64,000 nucleotides of DNA, taken from assembly GCA_027491075.1 (NCBI GenBank), contig JAIXWX010000025.1, positions 62,001-126,000 on the forward strand, given 5' to 3'. The DNA comes from Flavobacteriales bacterium (GTDB lineage Bacteria; Bacteroidota; Bacteroidia; Flavobacteriales_D; Sanyastnellaceae). Made by a program: the position numbers and the translations under genes. The notes beneath the pieces are model-generated. The model ran no database searches, was not told the origin of the DNA, and saw only the letters and a list, made by a program, of their open reading frames with translations. Below are positions 25,856 through 34,396 of the stretch, in pieces. Each line of letters starts with the position of its first letter. The stretch's first letter is position 1.

Positions 25856-26662
25856 ATGGCAAAGTTACAACTCAAAGTACTGGTTCCTGTTGATTTCACG
25901 GAAGCTTCAGAAGTGGCAATCAAGCAAGCAATGTTGATGAAGGAAGAGTTTGAATTACAAGTGGATTTATTCCATGTGGTGCATGAATTGATAGAAAGTG
26001 TGGAAGCTGAAAGTAGACTTCAGTTTTATGTGAAAGATCTTCGTGATGCCGGCATTGCATCTAATTTAGTCATTGAAGAGGGAAGAGTTCTTCCTACAAT
26101 CAATGCCACGTGCGCAAACGGAAACTATGGATTAATGATTTTGGGAACCCATGGTCCCAAAGGATTGCGGCAGTTGTTGTTGGGTTCTGATATTCTTCAT
26201 TTGTTAAAGGAGAATCCTTGTCCAAGTGTTGTGGTTCAAAAGAAATCCACACCTGTAGATCATTTTCGAAGGATTCTTTTGCCAGTTGGGAGTCACGATG
26301 AATATCTTGAATTGGTTCAAGCCACTGGAATTATAGCCAAATCCAGTCAATCCGAAGTAATCATTTATTTAATTCAAAGACCTGGAGAGGACTTAGCGGA
26401 AGAACTTTTGGAGAACAAAGAGATCACCATTCGAATGTTCAAAGAACATGGAGTCCATTATAAAGAAGTTACTGAAGATATGTCCGTTTTCTCGTTTGGT
26501 TTTGCGAAGCAAACTTTGATGTATGCGGAGAAGAACGAAGTCGACCTGATTGCAATGATGCCCCATGCCTCGAATGAACACAGTTATTTTGCAGATGCTG
26601 ATAAAGAGCGGATAATTATGAATGATAAAGGGATAGCGGTACTTTGTGGTGCTGGTGTTTAA
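25856..26662 (+). CDS. Universal stress protein, tandem UspA domains
   Basis: A 268-aa cytoplasmic protein. The first UspA domain is well formed (VLVPVDFTEASEVAIKQA, then ILGTHGPKG and GSDILHLL with PSVVV). The second (ILLPVGSHDEYLELVQ to the C-terminus) lacks the full GxxGxxxxGS nucleotide loop and so may not bind ATP. Bacteroidota often have such tandem Usp proteins. Its 3' end overlaps the convergent acetyltransferase gene by 4 bases. Confidence 0.92.
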   Translation: MAKLQLKVLVPVDFTEASEVAIKQAMLMKEEFELQVDLFHVVHELIESVEAESRLQFYVKDLRDAGIASNLVIEEGRVLPTINATCANGNYGLMILGTHGPKGLRQLLLGSDILHLLKENPCPSVVVQKKSTPVDHFRRILLPVGSHDEYLELVQATGIIAKSSQSEVIIYLIQRPGEDLAEELLENKEITIRMFKEHGVHYKEVTEDMSVFSFGFAKQTLMYAEKNEVDLIAMMPHASNEHSYFADADKERIIMNDKGIAVLCGAGV

Positions 26663-27150
26663 GGAATCCATCGACGCATCCACAATACGTCAAACCATTG
26701 ATCAAATTTGTATCCTACTTTTTCGTAAAGTGCAAACTCTTCGAAGTGATTTGCGCGATGAAAAGCAACACTTTGGTCATTCGGTTGTGTAATCACCGCA
26801 AATGCTTGTTTGAAACCCGACTCAGATAGTTGAAGAAATAACGCATCGTAAAGCTTTGAAGCCACTCCCTTTCGAGTGGCTTTTTCATCCATGTATACGG
26901 AAGTTTCTACACAATATCGGTATGCTTCTCTCTCCCGATAAGAAGAGGCGTAAGCGTAACCGATAACGAGTCCATTTTCTTCGGCCACGATCCACGGATA
27001 CTTTGCTGTATAGAGCTCTATCCGTTGTTGCATTGTGCTAATGCTGGGAACGGTTAATTCAAACGAAACTGCGGAGCTTTCAACATGAGGGGCATAAATC
27101 GCAGTAATTCTTTCAGCATCCGAAGGACGAACATCTCTGAAGGTTATCAT
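26659..27150 (-). CDS. GNAT N-acetyltransferase, phosphinothricin-acetyltransferase-like
   Basis: A 163-aa single-domain acetyltransferase. RDVRPSDAERITAIYAPHV and the acetyl-CoA loop ATRKGVASKLYDALF match the Pat/YncA subgroup, which acetylates small amino-group compounds such as methionine derivatives. The natural substrate is unknown. ATGA overlap with the upstream cytochrome gene (4 bases) suggests co-translation with it. Confidence 0.88.
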   Translation of the reverse strand: MITFRDVRPSDAERITAIYAPHVESSAVSFELTVPSISTMQQRIELYTAKYPWIVAEENGLVIGYAYASSYREREAYRYCVETSVYMDEKATRKGVASKLYDALFLQLSESGFKQAFAVITQPNDQSVAFHRANHFEEFALYEKVGYKFDQWFDVLWMRRWIP

Positions 27151-29120
27151 TGCCTTACCACTTTCTCAATGCGTCTTTTCTTATCAGAAATGATTTCTAT
27201 GAGGTAGGTACCTTTCGGTGCTGGAAGTTGGATTTGTGCGTTGGTTTGGTTGACCCATCGAACGTCAATAAGCGCTCCCTGAAGATTATAAATCTTTATT
27301 TCGCGCACCACATCGTTTCCATTTTGTAACGTTATCCATCCATTTAAGGTGGGGTTAGGGCCAAGTATAAACCCACGTGAATTTTCTTCCATTCCGACCA
27401 GTGTGGAACTCATTTCATCAGCGGCCATTTCTACAGAAGCAGGGCCTTCTTCCCAGTACATGGCTTCAAAAGCATTGATGGTAGGATGGTCGACTGAAAA
27501 CAACTCCTCTGTCCATCGAGGAGGAACACTTTGGTAGAAGATCTTAGCCTTGACTGTAACATTTCCATTTATTCCACTGACGGGAATATGATACCTCACC
27601 TCATCTGTTCCTGTGCCTTCTATGCCAGCCACTTTATTGAAGTTTGGGTCAGTAGATGCGGCTCCCACAATTGCAGTTGTATCGTAAGCACTGTGCAGAG
27701 TACTGAATCCTATGGGCACAAGTCTATTGTCTTTCAGCATTGTTGCAGCGCGCTCAAGCACCGTAGTAGGATCTCCGTTTACATCTCCCATGATCATTTC
27801 GTATATCTGTACTTGACCTTCACTGGAAATCAAATCATGATGAGGCTCGTAGGGTAAGTCATTTCCGAACACCTCATAAGGGTTACCGACTTCAGGTTTA
27901 CCACTATGGAAAATAGTGTTTCCATTTTCGTCGAGCATTTCGAAAGTTAAGTAAGCCCTTCTTGCAGGATATCCACTTGGGAGTTTATGTCCAGCCAAAT
28001 TCGCTACTTTAACCGTGTAGCGTGCAGTGTCTCCATCCACTTCACCCGGAATAATTTCTATTTCCGCACTTTGATTCTGAAGCATGTCCAGAGTACGTTC
28101 GATGACTGTATTGAAGTTTTGTTCAGAGGCAGTAATACCCAAAGTCTCAATGTTGTTTTTCATTAAATTCAACATAAACGTATTTCCTCCCACCAACCAG
28201 TGCTGACCAAACGGCTCTCTTCCAGGAAGAAATGCATATCCAGATGCAATAACAATGGGTTCTTCGATTCGTGGCATGTGGCAGCCTTGGCATTCTTGAT
28301 TGCTCGGACCATCGCTGTTAAAACTAGAGTTCAACCATTCGTGATAGGTTGCTTGCTCTACGAACTTGTCGCCAGTTAAATTTCCTTCTAAATCTGCTGT
28401 TTCTGTAAGTAGGGAATGGCAAGCAGCACAGAATTCCGATTTTGCAACTTTGTGATTTCCTACGGGAGCGTATCCTACGAAGCTCGTCATTGCTGCTTCA
28501 AAGATCGGGAAGCTCATTTCTTCAGAGATATATGGACCCCAGATGGTATCTGTATGATAAAAGAGTTCTCCGCTGAAGTGTTGTCCAAGATTTTCCATTC
28601 GCTGTTGGTGACATGCCCCACAGTTAACGCCATCACGAGCTAGGGAGTCTTCTTGTAACAGCTCCATCGAGTAAAATTCACCACCTTGCATTTCGTGAGT
28701 GAATCTTCCCACAGGCGCGTGACAGCTGGTACATTTGTTTACTAATTCTTGTTCATGGTCGGGATTAACTGATACTTCATGTGCCACTTTTGCTAGCCAT
28801 AGTGGATCCTTCGCAGAATTGGCCATCATGGTTGCTCTCCAGTTCTCAGTAGGGCTGACATGTTCCCCTTCCATAGTCATGTTTGCGCTGCCGATAGGAT
28901 CTATTCCATGACAGCCGGCACACTTACCGCTACCGATAAAAACGCCGTTGTCTCCGACAGGAAGGCCATTGACATTCATCATCATTGATACCATTTCTTC
29001 TTGAGAATGATAAGGCACGGGTTTTTGATCGTGACTGTACGCCGCTACAAGGCCAGTGAACATTATGGCACCAAAGCCAAATAAGCATATTTTCGGGTAT
29101 ATACGAATGAGGTTCTTCAT
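27147..29120 (-). CDS. Pentaheme c-type cytochrome with T9SS type A sorting domain
   Basis: A secreted cytochrome of about 657 aa. Five CxxCH motifs are visible: CAGCH, CTSCH, CGACH, CAACH and CQGCH, all in the N-terminal half, with further histidines for axial ligation (EGEHV, FTHEM, LGQHF). A beta-rich region follows, and the end has the type A sorting signature (GPNPTLNGWITLQN, IYNLQGALI, PKGTYLIEI, basic tail). ATG at 29120 gives a hydrophobic signal (ICLFGFGAIMFTGLVAA); the longer frame to 29183 overlaps DUF721 and is not needed. Predicted to be surface-exposed; the redox partner is unknown. Confidence 0.9.
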   Translation of the reverse strand: MKNLIRIYPKICLFGFGAIMFTGLVAAYSHDQKPVPYHSQEEMVSMMMNVNGLPVGDNGVFIGSGKCAGCHGIDPIGSANMTMEGEHVSPTENWRATMMANSAKDPLWLAKVAHEVSVNPDHEQELVNKCTSCHAPVGRFTHEMQGGEFYSMELLQEDSLARDGVNCGACHQQRMENLGQHFSGELFYHTDTIWGPYISEEMSFPIFEAAMTSFVGYAPVGNHKVAKSEFCAACHSLLTETADLEGNLTGDKFVEQATYHEWLNSSFNSDGPSNQECQGCHMPRIEEPIVIASGYAFLPGREPFGQHWLVGGNTFMLNLMKNNIETLGITASEQNFNTVIERTLDMLQNQSAEIEIIPGEVDGDTARYTVKVANLAGHKLPSGYPARRAYLTFEMLDENGNTIFHSGKPEVGNPYEVFGNDLPYEPHHDLISSEGQVQIYEMIMGDVNGDPTTVLERAATMLKDNRLVPIGFSTLHSAYDTTAIVGAASTDPNFNKVAGIEGTGTDEVRYHIPVSGINGNVTVKAKIFYQSVPPRWTEELFSVDHPTINAFEAMYWEEGPASVEMAADEMSSTLVGMEENSRGFILGPNPTLNGWITLQNGNDVVREIKIYNLQGALIDVRWVNQTNAQIQLPAPKGTYLIEIISDKKRRIEKVVRQ

Positions 29121-29176
29121 CTTGGTTTTACCTGCAGATTTTGTCGTTGCAATATACAGCGATGAAGCGAAAACAC

Positions 29177-29473
29177 CTACCAAATTTCTACATCTTCTAT
29201 GAAAATACCTCCCAAATGATCATTGATTAATTGGAGGAGTTTAGACTTGTTCATACTCAGTTCTTCTTTGAGCGCGGAACTTTCTAGTTTCACAATCAAA
29301 GTTCTTTCTCTCACCTTGACCACTTTGGTACGGTTGGAAACGGAAGGGCCTAATACTTCGTGGTATGCCCTAATGACTGAGGCTTCGTCGAATTTTTTTC
29401 GCAATCCTGCTTCATCGAGCATTTGTCGAATAACATCTTTCAGACTTTGGTCGTGATTTTTACGTTTAGACAT
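29177..29473 (-). CDS. DUF721 (DciA-like) protein
   Basis: A 98-aa protein with the DUF721 pattern: LKDVIRQMLDEAGLRKKFDE, then VIRAYHEVLGPSVSNRTKVV and LIVKLESSALKEELSMNKS. The family includes DciA, the helicase-loading factor of many bacteria, and often sits next to recF as here (27 bases downstream of it). ATG at 29473 (MSKRKNHDQ) is preferred to the ATG six codons earlier. Confidence 0.88.
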   Translation of the reverse strand: MSKRKNHDQSLKDVIRQMLDEAGLRKKFDEASVIRAYHEVLGPSVSNRTKVVKVRERTLIVKLESSALKEELSMNKSKLLQLINDHLGGIFIEDVEIW

Positions 29474-29500
29474 GGTCAAGGGATAATTCAATCCGTAGCA

Positions 29501-30700
29501 TTAATGATGTGGAATAGAGGTAGAGTGAGAAAGGCAAGTGTTTTGAGCTATTTTATAAATCTGAAATGCTGCTTTTTTAGATTGAAGGAGGTCTGGAATT
29601 CTATCAATATGAGTATCAGAAATAAAAACTTGACCCTTTATTTTATCAAGAATCCAATCTAGGAGATTCGATACGCGAAGATCATCTACTTTATCATATA
29701 AATCATCTAGAAGGAGGATCGGGTGTACTTTACTTCGGCCTCGAATGATCATGTATTGTGCAAGTTTAAGAGCAATTAGAAAGGACTTTTGCTGACCTTG
29801 GGAGGCGAATTTTTTAATAGGTTGATTTTCTATGAAAAAATCTAAATCATCCTTATGAATTCCGCCCGTAGTTCGTTCTAGGATTCTATCTTTTTCTCTG
29901 TTTTTTTTAAGAATGTCATCCATTGAAGCTTCTGCGAGCGAGGTGCTGTAGGATAGACTACCGCGTTCTTTTCCACCTGAAATCTCAGAGTATACTTGTG
30001 CAAATACCTCTTCGAGCATTACAAAAAATCGAGTTCTTTCTTCAAAGATGGGCAATGCATGAAAAGCGAGCTGATAATCCCAAGGGTCAAGTAGTTCTTG
30101 AGGCGCTCCCATTTTTCCATAGGATTTCAATACTTGATTGCGCTGACTTAGAGCCTGATTATAGCGCATAAGATGATCCAGATAGACAGGGCTATATTGA
30201 CTGATGGTAGCATCCATGAATTTTCTGCGTACTTCGCTGCCTTCCCATATTAGCTCAATGTCATAGGGAGTAATGATGATGGAGGGAAGCAAGCCAATAT
30301 GTTCAGCCAGCCTCTCATACTCTTTATGATTCCTTTTCAGTACCTTTCTTTGATTCTTTCTAATAGCACAATGAATTAACTCTGGATTTCCGGCTCGCAG
30401 AAACTCACCTGTTATTCCCGCTTGATCATGTTCGTGGAGAATATTGAGTGCGTCTGAATTATGAAAGTAAGATTTTGTAAAACTCAAATAATGCACTGCA
30501 TCTAGGAGGTTTGTTTTTCCCTCCCCGTTATTTCCTAAGAAACAAACAATAGGCGAGGAGAATTCCAAAGAAGCAGATTCGTAGTTCTTAAATTGAAACA
30601 AGGAGAGTGCACGCAATGCCAGCGTGTCAATTGATGAGAGGGGATCAGTCGTCCCATCCTTCGTAGGATTGAAATTCGTAGGCATTGTCTCCATATTCAT
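29501..30700 (-). CDS. recF: DNA replication and repair protein RecF
   Basis: SMC-like ATPase that helps load RecA at gaps. Walker A is FLGNNGEGKTNLLDA, preceded by LSLFQFKNYESASLEF; late motifs are KKFASQGQQKSFLIALKLAQ and HPILLLDDLYDKVDDLR. Start uncertain: family alignment suggests translation from about 30616-30622 (TTG or CTG in TLALRAL), whereas the first ATG at 30700 or 30685 adds about 25 residues and overlaps the upstream gene by up to 56 bases. Followed by DUF721. Confidence 0.94.
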   Translation of the reverse strand: MNMETMPTNFNPTKDGTTDPLSSIDTLALRALSLFQFKNYESASLEFSSPIVCFLGNNGEGKTNLLDAVHYLSFTKSYFHNSDALNILHEHDQAGITGEFLRAGNPELIHCAIRKNQRKVLKRNHKEYERLAEHIGLLPSIIITPYDIELIWEGSEVRRKFMDATISQYSPVYLDHLMRYNQALSQRNQVLKSYGKMGAPQELLDPWDYQLAFHALPIFEERTRFFVMLEEVFAQVYSEISGGKERGSLSYSTSLAEASMDDILKKNREKDRILERTTGGIHKDDLDFFIENQPIKKFASQGQQKSFLIALKLAQYMIIRGRSKVHPILLLDDLYDKVDDLRVSNLLDWILDKIKGQVFISDTHIDRIPDLLQSKKAAFQIYKIAQNTCLSHSTSIPHH

Positions 30701-33700
30701 TTTTTCGATGAGATCTAACTAGTCGCTTATACAGCTCTTCCAGTTCTTCCATCTGATCTTTTTTATTGTCTAGCACTGCGGTGTTTCCCGACTCCCATAT
30801 TTCTGAAGACCAGGGCTCTCCATTTTTAGGCAAAATAAAGACAGTTCCGCGCCAATCCATCTCTCTTTTCTTCTTGAATTTTACAAACAATACAGTATAA
30901 TTTTTACCCTTAATGACTTCATCGCGCGAAAGCAGTATTTCTACTTTATCGATTTTACCTTTATTGTCATACGTAGACTCATACTCCGACTCGCAATACA
31001 GCCGCAACAATGAATCTGTTACAGCATAGCTTGCAGGCATTCTCTTTGTTATTTTAAGCTCTTCTAATTGATAGAAAAGATCCAAAACCATTTTCCTTTC
31101 TTCAGTGATAAACTCGAAAGTGCTATCTGGAGTGGGGATACCATGTTTTTCATTGAACCAAATATATTCGATGAGTAGCTTGCGTTTTTTTGATTTGTAA
31201 ATCTTATCAAAGAATGCATTTACCTCAGGCTTCGATCTGAAGGGGTGTAGTATAGAGCAAAAATTCATCAGCGCATTTGTGGAAAAATTGTATGATTTTT
31301 CGTCCATTCCATTCACGCGCTTGAGTTCATTCCTTGCCTCCAAAAGAATCATCTCCAGCTCTTTTTCGATAATTTTCTTGTCTACTTGCAAACTATCGGT
31401 CAGCAGTGCCAACAAGGAGTAGGTAGGATATTCAAATTCGTCCAACGTCACCAGCGATAGCGCTTCTGGGAAAATCAATCGTGCTAGTTGAAGTGAGTCT
31501 CTTAGGGAATTCAAAGGCGAACTATTTCCCGATCTACTTCCACCAATTGGAGCTTCATCCAAGAGGAGTTTTTTCATTCGCAAGGTGGCTATTTTGGTGT
31601 CCATCCATCCCAGATTGCTGAGTATCTTATTTTGCATCTGAGCACTATCGCTGTTGAGATAGTATTGTTTTGTAAGAAACTCGATATTGACCTCCGACGT
31701 GTCTCTCCACAGCTCAGATAGTAGATTGTTTTTTATTTCCTCCTTGTCCTTTTTTTCTTGGGTTGTTGGAAGGTTTACTATCATGCTTCTGATTTCTTGG
31801 GCATTTTCCTTCAAGATTGCAACTTCTTGTAATAAAAGAATGGCATTGCTTTGAGTGGTGCTGTCCGAACTAGCCAGATCTCTAAGAAAAGTTGATCCTC
31901 CATTGGAAAATAAGGACGTCGCAAAAACAGTATCTATTGGCTCGAAGTTGTTGAAAAGCTGTTGGACGAAATCGCTGTACCCCATAGTACTATCGAACGA
32001 CGCAGTAATAGTGTACTCTGAGTGGTTGTGCAAATGCTTTAGGATCCGCAGACCTCGAGTGCTTGCAGTATCAACACATTGATAGATAGCCCTGAAACCA
32101 GTAGGGGTTTCTTGAAAATCTTCTTCTTTCAGAATAAAATCTTTGTATTCAGATACATCTCTTTTCCAATCGTCAAGAAATTCTTTTTTGTCTTCTAGTT
32201 GAGAATATTTGTGATATCTTCTTAGTTGCACCAATGCTCTTTCAGCTGCGTTAGGCGGCATAATTCGGATGCGTTCTCTTTTGCCCTCTGCCTCATTGAT
32301 ATCGTCTTCAGATTCCCATTCATAACCGTAATCCGTATTGATCTGCTCTCTATTTAAGTCAAACGGAAGTTTGGTTTTGAACATGACCAGGGTATCCGTA
32401 TAAGTATAGAATTGCTCATATCGCGGCAGACCCATTTTAAAAGATTGAAAATAGTTTTGAGCGATTTCGTCGTTCTCCGTTTTCACAAGCAATACGATTT
32501 TGCTGAGATTGTGGTATACGAATCTTAGATGCAATTTTTCCCCTTTTTTATTCTTGTAAAGACCATCCATGAAGTGAAAACTACCAGAGAATTGAGGCTG
32601 TGTTTCAGAAATCACAGTCCATTTCTTGTCTTTCTTGTAATCATCAGCGATGGTTTTTACGATATAATGGTCTTCGTCAAGATAGAAAGGCTCATAATCA
32701 TAGAATCGTTGGAAGAAATAGTAGGAATTTGTGTTTTGATCGTACGAGCTGACCTCGAAATGTGGTGTTCTATCGAGTTTACTAGTAGATGCGAAATACG
32801 TTCTGTCGCCTGGAATATTGGCGCTTAAGCTATTATCAGGAGAGAACCAAGTTTTGTTGGCCAACCTTTTTCTCTCGTAATTGAGTTTCATTGAATTAAA
32901 GAATTCATCACCATAACCTTTCTGCACTTTGTCTTTAAGGGCAGAAATTTTTTGAATGATCACTTCTTCAGGAGTATAAATAATTCTGCGTCTTTGAATG
33001 TCACCTCGGCGGCTTTTGTTAGTGATATCAACTGCTGGAAAACCACTGACAGTAACTTTTTTCATTTGGATGATATCGCCTGGTGTCGCTTCGTACAAAA
33101 TAGAATCTATGGACGCCATCACTTGTTCGGTGGAAGTGCCGAGAAAACCACCATAAGTTTTGATTCTGTACACGGAAAAATTTGCTCCATTGGGAATATC
33201 TAATGCAATCCAGCCGCTATTGTTTGAACTAGGCAGGGGATATGCTTTACCAGGACAAGAGAATGTCAAAACACTATCCGAGAATGTATAATTTTGATAT
33301 TCTCTTTTAAAAATTACTTTATCTAATTTTTCTCTTCTTTTAGCGTCTCGGGCTCCTTTCTCAATAGGCTCTACCGTAAATCCCATCTGACGCAGCATTT
33401 CAATGACTCCATCTTTTCCTGGCAGGTGAGCGCAACCCATTGCAGCGAATATTGAGTTTCCAGATTTCAACACCGAGTCAATGGAAGACACAAAAACCCT
33501 ATTCCTTTCCACGAGAATAAATTGATTGAATGCTTCACTATTGGTACGCATGCTAATACTATCCACAAGATCGAGGTCTTGTCTACGATAAGCACTTTCG
33601 ATTTGTGCTTGAAGCTCGCGCATATCTTTTCGGTCCTCTGCGTCGAAACTTTTTTTCGTTTTGGCATTTCTTTCAGCCTTGCGCGCCATTTTTCCGTAAT

Positions 33701-34241
33701 AGGTACTTTGACGATATGTTTCTAATCCAAGGGTTCTTTTTCCTAGTTTTTTTCCAGTTTGATAAATGTACATGTCTAGCCAAGTGTTTTCCTCGAAATC
33801 AGCGGCTCCGCCGTAGTCATCAAATCGGAACAACATATAGTTGAGCAAGGGTGGCTCATAGGTTAGGATATTCTTTACCGTACTTTGCAAGTCTGGATCG
33901 AAGGCGAAGAAGTTTTCCGAATTCGATCCATTTGAGTTAAAGTTATTATTATCATCACCGAAATCACCACCGAATCGTTGGCCATCAAACATCGCATCGA
34001 GCCATGCTTCAGGCTCCAGTTCGAGGGCCACTACATCTACTTGTTGTATTGCATCATAGAAAGGATCACCTAATTGAAATACCAGTTTTTCACTTACGTG
34101 CATCGTACCATAGAGATAAGACGGTTTGGCGAGTCCATTGCCGGAAACCTTCCAAAGTAGGCTTTGGTATTTCTTCTGGTTTTGGGCTTGTATGAAGAGA
34201 GTAGAAAAAGAGAGAATCAGTACTAAAAGAAATTTCTGCAT
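30645..34241 (-). CDS. Very large TraB/GumN family secreted protein
   Basis: About 1198 aa with a signal peptide (MQKFLLVLILSFSTLFIQAQ). Residues about 25-310 are the TraB/GumN domain: SYLYGTMHVSEKLVF, VALELEPEAW and the closing NSIFAAMGCAHLPG motif. TraB domains resemble a metal-dependent protease/erythromycin-esterase-like fold. The remaining 880 residues, about three quarters of the protein, carry no domain I recognise; they are rich in charged residues and contain repeated FFQRFYDYEPF and GLPRYEQFYTY-like beta segments. Most TraB/GumN proteins are only about 300 aa long. Confidence 0.85.
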   Translation of the reverse strand: MQKFLLVLILSFSTLFIQAQNQKKYQSLLWKVSGNGLAKPSYLYGTMHVSEKLVFQLGDPFYDAIQQVDVVALELEPEAWLDAMFDGQRFGGDFGDDNNNFNSNGSNSENFFAFDPDLQSTVKNILTYEPPLLNYMLFRFDDYGGAADFEENTWLDMYIYQTGKKLGKRTLGLETYRQSTYYGKMARKAERNAKTKKSFDAEDRKDMRELQAQIESAYRRQDLDLVDSISMRTNSEAFNQFILVERNRVFVSSIDSVLKSGNSIFAAMGCAHLPGKDGVIEMLRQMGFTVEPIEKGARDAKRREKLDKVIFKREYQNYTFSDSVLTFSCPGKAYPLPSSNNSGWIALDIPNGANFSVYRIKTYGGFLGTSTEQVMASIDSILYEATPGDIIQMKKVTVSGFPAVDITNKSRRGDIQRRRIIYTPEEVIIQKISALKDKVQKGYGDEFFNSMKLNYERKRLANKTWFSPDNSLSANIPGDRTYFASTSKLDRTPHFEVSSYDQNTNSYYFFQRFYDYEPFYLDEDHYIVKTIADDYKKDKKWTVISETQPQFSGSFHFMDGLYKNKKGEKLHLRFVYHNLSKIVLLVKTENDEIAQNYFQSFKMGLPRYEQFYTYTDTLVMFKTKLPFDLNREQINTDYGYEWESEDDINEAEGKRERIRIMPPNAAERALVQLRRYHKYSQLEDKKEFLDDWKRDVSEYKDFILKEEDFQETPTGFRAIYQCVDTASTRGLRILKHLHNHSEYTITASFDSTMGYSDFVQQLFNNFEPIDTVFATSLFSNGGSTFLRDLASSDSTTQSNAILLLQEVAILKENAQEIRSMIVNLPTTQEKKDKEEIKNNLLSELWRDTSEVNIEFLTKQYYLNSDSAQMQNKILSNLGWMDTKIATLRMKKLLLDEAPIGGSRSGNSSPLNSLRDSLQLARLIFPEALSLVTLDEFEYPTYSLLALLTDSLQVDKKIIEKELEMILLEARNELKRVNGMDEKSYNFSTNALMNFCSILHPFRSKPEVNAFFDKIYKSKKRKLLIEYIWFNEKHGIPTPDSTFEFITEERKMVLDLFYQLEELKITKRMPASYAVTDSLLRLYCESEYESTYDNKGKIDKVEILLSRDEVIKGKNYTVLFVKFKKKREMDWRGTVFILPKNGEPWSSEIWESGNTAVLDNKKDQMEELEELYKRLVRSHRKNEYGDNAYEFQSYEGWDD

Positions 34242-34396
34242 TCTAAAGCGATATAATAGATGGGCTAATATAAGCAAGTGGGAGGGTTGTTTTCGGGAAC
34301 GCGAATTGCTGTTCTTTAGTTTGTCTTGGTTGTTTTAATTTAATAACCTGATTATCAGCATCTTGATTGTTTATTAGGACTTCCCGAAAATCCTTT

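Follow-up and report, generated by a model that had tools for sequence, protein, structure and literature searches.

A pentaheme c-type cytochrome with a type IX secretion tail in Flavobacteriales and its proposed role as a surface redox relay

How might a multiheme cytochrome be displayed on a Gram-negative cell when it ends in a type IX secretion tail? Porin-cytochrome conduits place multiheme cytochromes at the outer side of the outer membrane, and the hemes of c-type cytochromes are attached in the periplasm. The question is raised by one gene in a window of 64,000 nucleotides (the whole stretch of DNA analysed here, G000:C25:62001-126000) from a Flavobacteriales genome of 3.02 Mb in 34 contigs. 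Its product unites five CxxCH motifs and a type A sorting domain of the type IX secretion system (T9SS) in one protein, as the initial annotation had claimed and as motif scan, TIGR04183 and PF18962 confirm. The reading preferred here, to which we assign a probability of about 0.6, is that of a T9SS-secreted pentaheme c-type cytochrome of the ExtKL/c552 (PHC) kind acting as a surface redox relay. No description of a T9SS-exported multiheme cytochrome was found in the open-licence PMC literature, an absence that weighs little. A term search did not return the word “cytochrome” from the accessible text of a 2023 review of T9SS effectors (PMC10202324), and extracellular multiheme cytochromes have already been predicted in Bacteroidota in an article whose available portion does not mention T9SS (PMC11495043).

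The gene, its surroundings and its pentaheme core

The cytochrome gene occupies 27147..29120 on the (-) strand and is defined by profile matches and an open reading frame of 657 aa, with an ATG start at 29120 and a stop at 27147-27149. Judged by eye, the N-terminus consists of basic residues and then a hydrophobic stretch, and residues 1-27 (29040..29120, (-)) are read as a signal-peptide-like segment whose cleavage site is estimated. No lipobox was seen there by eye, and C12, in the middle of this segment, is the sole cysteine outside the heme motifs. These motifs, all on the (-) strand, are CAGCH (I, residues 67-71, 28908..28922), CTSCH (II, residues 130-134, 28719..28733), CGACH (III, residues 167-171, 28608..28622), CAACH (IV, residues 231-235, 28416..28430), and CQGCH (V, residues 277-281, 28278..28292). 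The core, which holds an invariant GHKxPSG motif (H378), spans residues 57-572 (27405..28952, (-)), its limits being those of residues 30-545 of the AlphaFold model plus 27, while the sorting domain takes up about residues 583-657 (27150..27374, (-)).

Downstream, a GNAT acetyltransferase gene (26659..27150, (-)) shares its first 4 bases with the end of the cytochrome gene, stop codon included. The next gene upstream is a dciA homologue (29177..29491, (-)), which ends 56 bases before the cytochrome ATG and is preceded by a gene with an SMC_N match (29501..30700, (-)) that we read as recF; Usp and PhoH genes are also among the neighbours. The order recF-dciA-cytochrome is found again in related loci: of 96 neighbourhoods compared, 28 contain the recF family and 25 the dciA family. 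This cluster (window 27147-30700), shared by many related genera, is an unexpected setting for a cytochrome of the cell surface. Adjoining recF is a secreted-looking ORF of 1210 aa (window 30645-34277), which recurs in 7/96 of the neighbourhoods and whose N-terminal part presumably resembles TraB/GumN proteins. Scans for promoters and terminators around the cytochrome gene gave nothing above shuffles, and among the adjoining genes we recognised neither a porin nor a cytochrome of ext type.

An AlphaFold2 model built on alignment A2 has a mean pLDDT of 88.2, and its core aligns along its length with the pentaheme cytochrome c552 of Thermochromatium tepidum (5ze8; VIA-align Z 24.8, rmsd 2.9, 352/385 residues). 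Profile searches of PDB sequences lead to the same protein (E 1.5e-12) and to MccSep (E 1.1e-7). Because the core matches c552 structurally over its full length, the protein belongs with the ExtKL/PHC pentaheme cytochromes. It shares with c552 five hemes, followed in the sequence by an Ig-like domain with an H-x-x-P-x-G motif, but the two are 24% identical, the 5ze8 chain matches the core alone, and at its C-terminus the window protein continues for about 75 residues more, which form the T9SS tail. A pentaheme with an Ig-like domain is likewise found in ExtKL/MccSep (NF040886, PDB 9wt8) and in the PHC of cable bacteria; unlike ExtKL, however, the window cytochrome has an open frame without an in-frame UGA, and it carries the tail. 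The ExtKL model gives weak but consistent matches in 54/57 members of A2, there below its cut-off, and in 39/40 members of the wider alignment A3. Under the equivalog rule of NF040886 the window protein scores 28.3 against the 250 bits set for membership, which makes it a relative and not a member; assignment to NrfA, HAO or MtrC was rejected, their matches being weak and local. In the part of the cable-bacteria study available, ExtKL, Gsu2801 and the cable-bacteria pentahemes are grouped as the PHC family, related to T. tepidum c552 (PMC11976967).

Which residues would hold the five hemes? Axial ligands were judged by conservation only, over 96 aligned rows. Outside CxxCH, histidines H307, H378, and H427 are present in at least 95/96 rows, and a histidine just before heme IV stands in register in 74/96, that of the window protein being shifted by one; M99, M211, and M316 are near-invariant, and H114 and H260 are specific to the clade. 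With four near-universal histidines for five hemes, one heme would thus be open, methionine-ligated, or ligated by H114 or H260. An open site would suit a surface or extracellular multiheme enzyme, and not a relay, acting on a small substrate such as selenite, nitrogen oxides or peroxide. This fits the count of only about four such histidines, the classing of sPHC and lPHC as potentially catalytic, with pentacoordinated hemes, by the cable-bacteria authors (PMC11976967, from the portion available), and the link drawn between ExtKL and selenite reduction in an excerpt of another study (PMC5877670). The fifth ligand could nevertheless come from M99, M211, M316, H114, or H260, and we regard an enzyme as unlikely, if worth keeping in mind beside the relay.

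The sorting tail and the proposed route out of the cell

The tail is recognised by both sorting-domain models, clearly by TIGR04183 (E 3.5e-9, 36.5 bits, cut-off 23) and narrowly by PF18962 (28.3 bits, cut-off 27). It is predicted by AlphaFold to form a seven-strand sandwich with the Ig-like fold of T9SS C-terminal domains (CTDs), and this model matches 8gl6, 8glk, and 8gl8, the CTDs of RemA, NucA, and RemZ solved in the T9SS translocon (SprA), with Z 10.0-11.1 over 71-73 residues (VIA-align); the NucA CTD is also matched in the profile search of PDB sequences (E 1.5e-6). The protein resembles known type A cargo (RemA, RemZ, and NucA of Flavobacterium johnsoniae, and the gingipain RgpB) in its C-terminal sandwich and, as far as its start can be judged by eye, in a Sec-signal-like N-terminus, but differs from it in being a multiheme c-type cytochrome.

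The named relatives are nearly all metagenome-assembled genomes of uncultured Flavobacteriales, Cryomorphaceae, Crocinitomicaceae, and Saprospiraceae; the label “Chryseobacterium gleum” on some of them is, we think, wrong. The cytochrome is matched in 50/60 relatives at E <= 1e-5, and its body is present in 46/60, the match covering the tail only in the other four matching genomes (G050, G052, G054, and G057). Exactly five CxxCH motifs are found in 43/43 homologous ORFs of loci L001-L043, and across 40 diverse aligned rows the Cys and His of these motifs hardly vary, if at all; deviations in the wider set are contig-end fragments and a six-heme Paracoccus protein (L045). As for the tail, TIGR04183 is matched by 57/57 members of A2 at E <= 0.01. 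In the wider A3 set it is matched in 23/40 rows and 14/40 stop where the tail would start, which leaves three rows that extend over the length of a tail yet fall short of the threshold. The family tree was made by a quick method, in which the long branches L148, L045, L044, L129, and L128 are placed unsurely. One tailless homologue with a lipobox-like start (by eye) lies on a plasmid of Sulfurovum mangrovi (L044:5854-7518), and the pentaheme family therefore crosses phyla.

Ten pairs were compared for dN/dS. In the five unsaturated ones the tail has values of 0.04-0.09 and the core has 0.02-0.04; the remaining pairs, the window's own among them, are saturated in core, tail or both. To judge from these ratios, the tail is under purifying selection. 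A chance occurrence of CxxCH motifs or of the tail is ruled out by the conserved five motifs, the 57/57 TIGR04183 matches and the dN/dS values. Might the tail nonetheless be a vestigial or non-functional Ig-like domain on a protein that stays in the periplasm? Several paralogue tails do look degenerate: that of L171 scores 21.1 against the TIGR04183 cut-off of 23, and that of a second copy in the same genome (C25:399341-401107, 44% identical to the window cytochrome) passes TIGR04183 at 26.8 against 23, with no PF18962 match in its Pfam list. We consider a vestigial tail very improbable all the same, given a tail kept in every A2 relative, its low dN/dS and its modelled likeness to translocon-bound CTDs. 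The claim of an authentic type A signal, conserved among relatives, accordingly stands, on the cut-offs passed, the 57/57 relatives and the fold match. The second copy itself lies beside a Met-zincin of DUF4953 and a lectin whose T9SS tail is of type B (CHU_C) (L031:2765-9614, G000:C25).

The genome encodes machinery that export would call for. SprA is present, matched in two neighbouring segments of a single frame of 2470 aa, PF18962 has 120 matches over cut-off among the 140 matches listed, and C25:309-312 kb holds genes for a pair of cytochrome c assembly proteins, one of them containing a CcmF C-terminal domain. That T9SS exports folded proteins, a premise of the initial annotation, is stated in the accessible part of a review (PMC9251779). 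Taken together with heme attachment in the periplasm, this movement of folded cargo leads us to infer that the hemes are attached before export.

The proposed course of events is as follows. The precursor would be exported by Sec and its five hemes attached in the periplasm by the Ccm machinery; the folded cytochrome would then dock in the SprA-PorV translocon by means of the sandwich at its C-terminus and be released to the surface, where the tail would be cut off and the protein anchored like other type A cargo. There it would relay electrons for extracellular partners, for instance T9SS-displayed quinoprotein dehydrogenases or acceptors in soluble or solid form. Tailless relatives instead encode this pentaheme body together with a fusion of cytochrome c and a likely outer-membrane barrel. 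Export by T9SS is the best-supported of these steps, and one in which we place high confidence; surface display is well supported by the sequence evidence. Anchoring, relay role, and direction of electron flow are what the cytochrome would be expected to have, the relay role because of paralogue neighbourhoods and family kinship.

Tail or barrel, and possible partners of tailed copies

How the family is distributed was surveyed in 395 Bacteroidota genomes, the family and fusion searches being taken as covering the same sample, whose size and genome labels agree. At E <= 1e-30 the pentaheme family occurs in 23 genomes, of which 12 have a tailed copy and the other 11 solely a tailless one. Searched with a protein from one tailless neighbourhood, fusions of cytochrome c and a likely barrel occur in 14/395: in 11/11 of the tailless genomes, in 0/12 of the tailed ones, and in three without the family. 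In all 11 tailless genomes the fusion gene immediately precedes the cytochrome gene and shares its strand, the matched parts being 104-190 bases apart. The nominal Fisher value of this pattern, 7e-7, overstates independence, as the 11 tailless genomes are one clade.

Five fusions of a one-heme cytochrome c with a likely outer-membrane barrel were located (L176:8959-10152, L177:5653-7092, L178:5730-6929, L179:9536-10780, and L181:6030-7226). Their C-terminal domain gives weak PF13557 matches (5/5 at E <= 10, best 1.5e-4, one over cut-off) and ends in a conserved aromatic residue (a terminal Trp), and on these two grounds it is likely to be an outer-membrane barrel; the fusion is plausibly a candidate outer-membrane conduit of its own. 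In this the tailless relatives resemble MtrCAB/Pcc conduits, from which the tailed genomes differ in having the barrel fusion in 0/12 cases, and the window's own genome in having no match to the MtrB family (the MtrB/PioB barrel, PF11854, one family searched). No outer-membrane barrel partner was found among the neighbours of the window cytochrome either, and the fusion barrel is absent from its genome. This pattern, a new one, suggests that tailed copies and tailless copies beside a barrel fusion represent two routes of the same cytochrome to the surface. One genome, G359, has tandem pentahemes that are 54% identical, one tailed and one tailless (L182:7413-11000), perhaps partners in the periplasm and at the surface.

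What, then, would the cytochrome exchange electrons with? Neighbours of tailed paralogues give some indication. A GSDH gene lies within 1.5 kb of 13/79 cytochrome pieces (0.3 expected) and an ASPIC gene within 2.5 kb of at least 13/79 (1.2 expected), counts that are not phylogenetically independent. The ASPIC genes are all on the same strand as the cytochrome, and the GSDH genes are divergent in 12 of 13 cases and on the same strand in one. The GSDHs vary in type, with a strong PQQ-dehydrogenase match in G017 and a Hhip-like protein in G007, and among those scanned a T9SS tail over cut-off is found at L043, L169, and L175 but not at L041 or L038. In G017 (L169:4031-10366), PQQ-dehydrogenase-like, pentaheme cytochrome and FG-GAP/ASPIC-type genes stand side by side, and all three proteins are over the TIGR04183 cut-off. 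The window's own genome encodes, unlinked to a cytochrome, a GSDH that bears a T9SS tail, is akin to soluble quinoprotein glucose dehydrogenase (E 4.8e-42) and is followed by a TonB-dependent receptor (L165:7698-11416, G000:C2); a similar pair adjoins the cytochrome in G017, and our guess is that the receptor takes up PQQ. At the window copy, in its recF-dciA-cytochrome-GNAT cluster, no GSDH or ASPIC neighbour is present, and the partner argument is thus borrowed from the paralogues.

A wire for long-range extracellular electron transfer is a further, rather improbable reading. The protein is kin to T. tepidum c552 and ExtKL, for which a relation to the archaeal nanowire AvECN has been put forward (Baquero et al., as cited in the accessible text of PMC11976967), and its tailless kin adjoin the cytochrome-barrel fusion, a plausible outer-membrane conduit. 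Yet a conduit of MtrB/PioB type is missing from the genome within the one family searched, nothing observed points to polymerisation, and a C19 cluster encoding one protein with six CxxCH, another of molybdopterin/FeS type and a third with one heme resembles, in our reading, alternative complex III, which makes an aerobic chain likely. The structural matches listed for the model include no nanowire chain, an absence that carries no weight. A surface redox relay is favoured over such a wire. Of what had been proposed for this locus, a route outside the usual porin-cytochrome systems has held up, with neither MtrB/PioB in the genome nor barrel fusion in the tailed genomes. Extracellular electron exchange has fared less well, as nothing was found that would conduct electrons from the respiratory chain out to the cell surface, and the neighbours of tailed paralogues fit secreted enzyme partners at least as well as a wire to minerals or electrodes.

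Meaning for the family and its hosts

A broader picture can be drawn, although we consider it quite improbable as a whole. Bacteroidota may run part of an electron-transport chain outside the cell, with heme-loaded, T9SS-shipped pentahemes of the nanowire-related c552/ExtKL kind arrayed on the surface next to PQQ-type dehydrogenases and FG-GAP/ASPIC proteins that are themselves displayed through T9SS. Substrates would then be oxidised and electrons handed over beyond the outer membrane, and T9SS export and the cytochrome-barrel conduit would be interchangeable evolutionary solutions.

The surface relay, for its part, makes a question testable, namely whether T9SS carries a covalently heme-loaded protein. 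The exclusivity of tail and barrel within one family (11/11 against 0/12) is a natural experiment on surface delivery. If the relay reading is true, T9SS would be a route for multiheme cytochromes to the outside of the Gram-negative cell, apart from porin-cytochrome conduits, and this in a lineage met repeatedly in metagenomes from freshwater and the sea.
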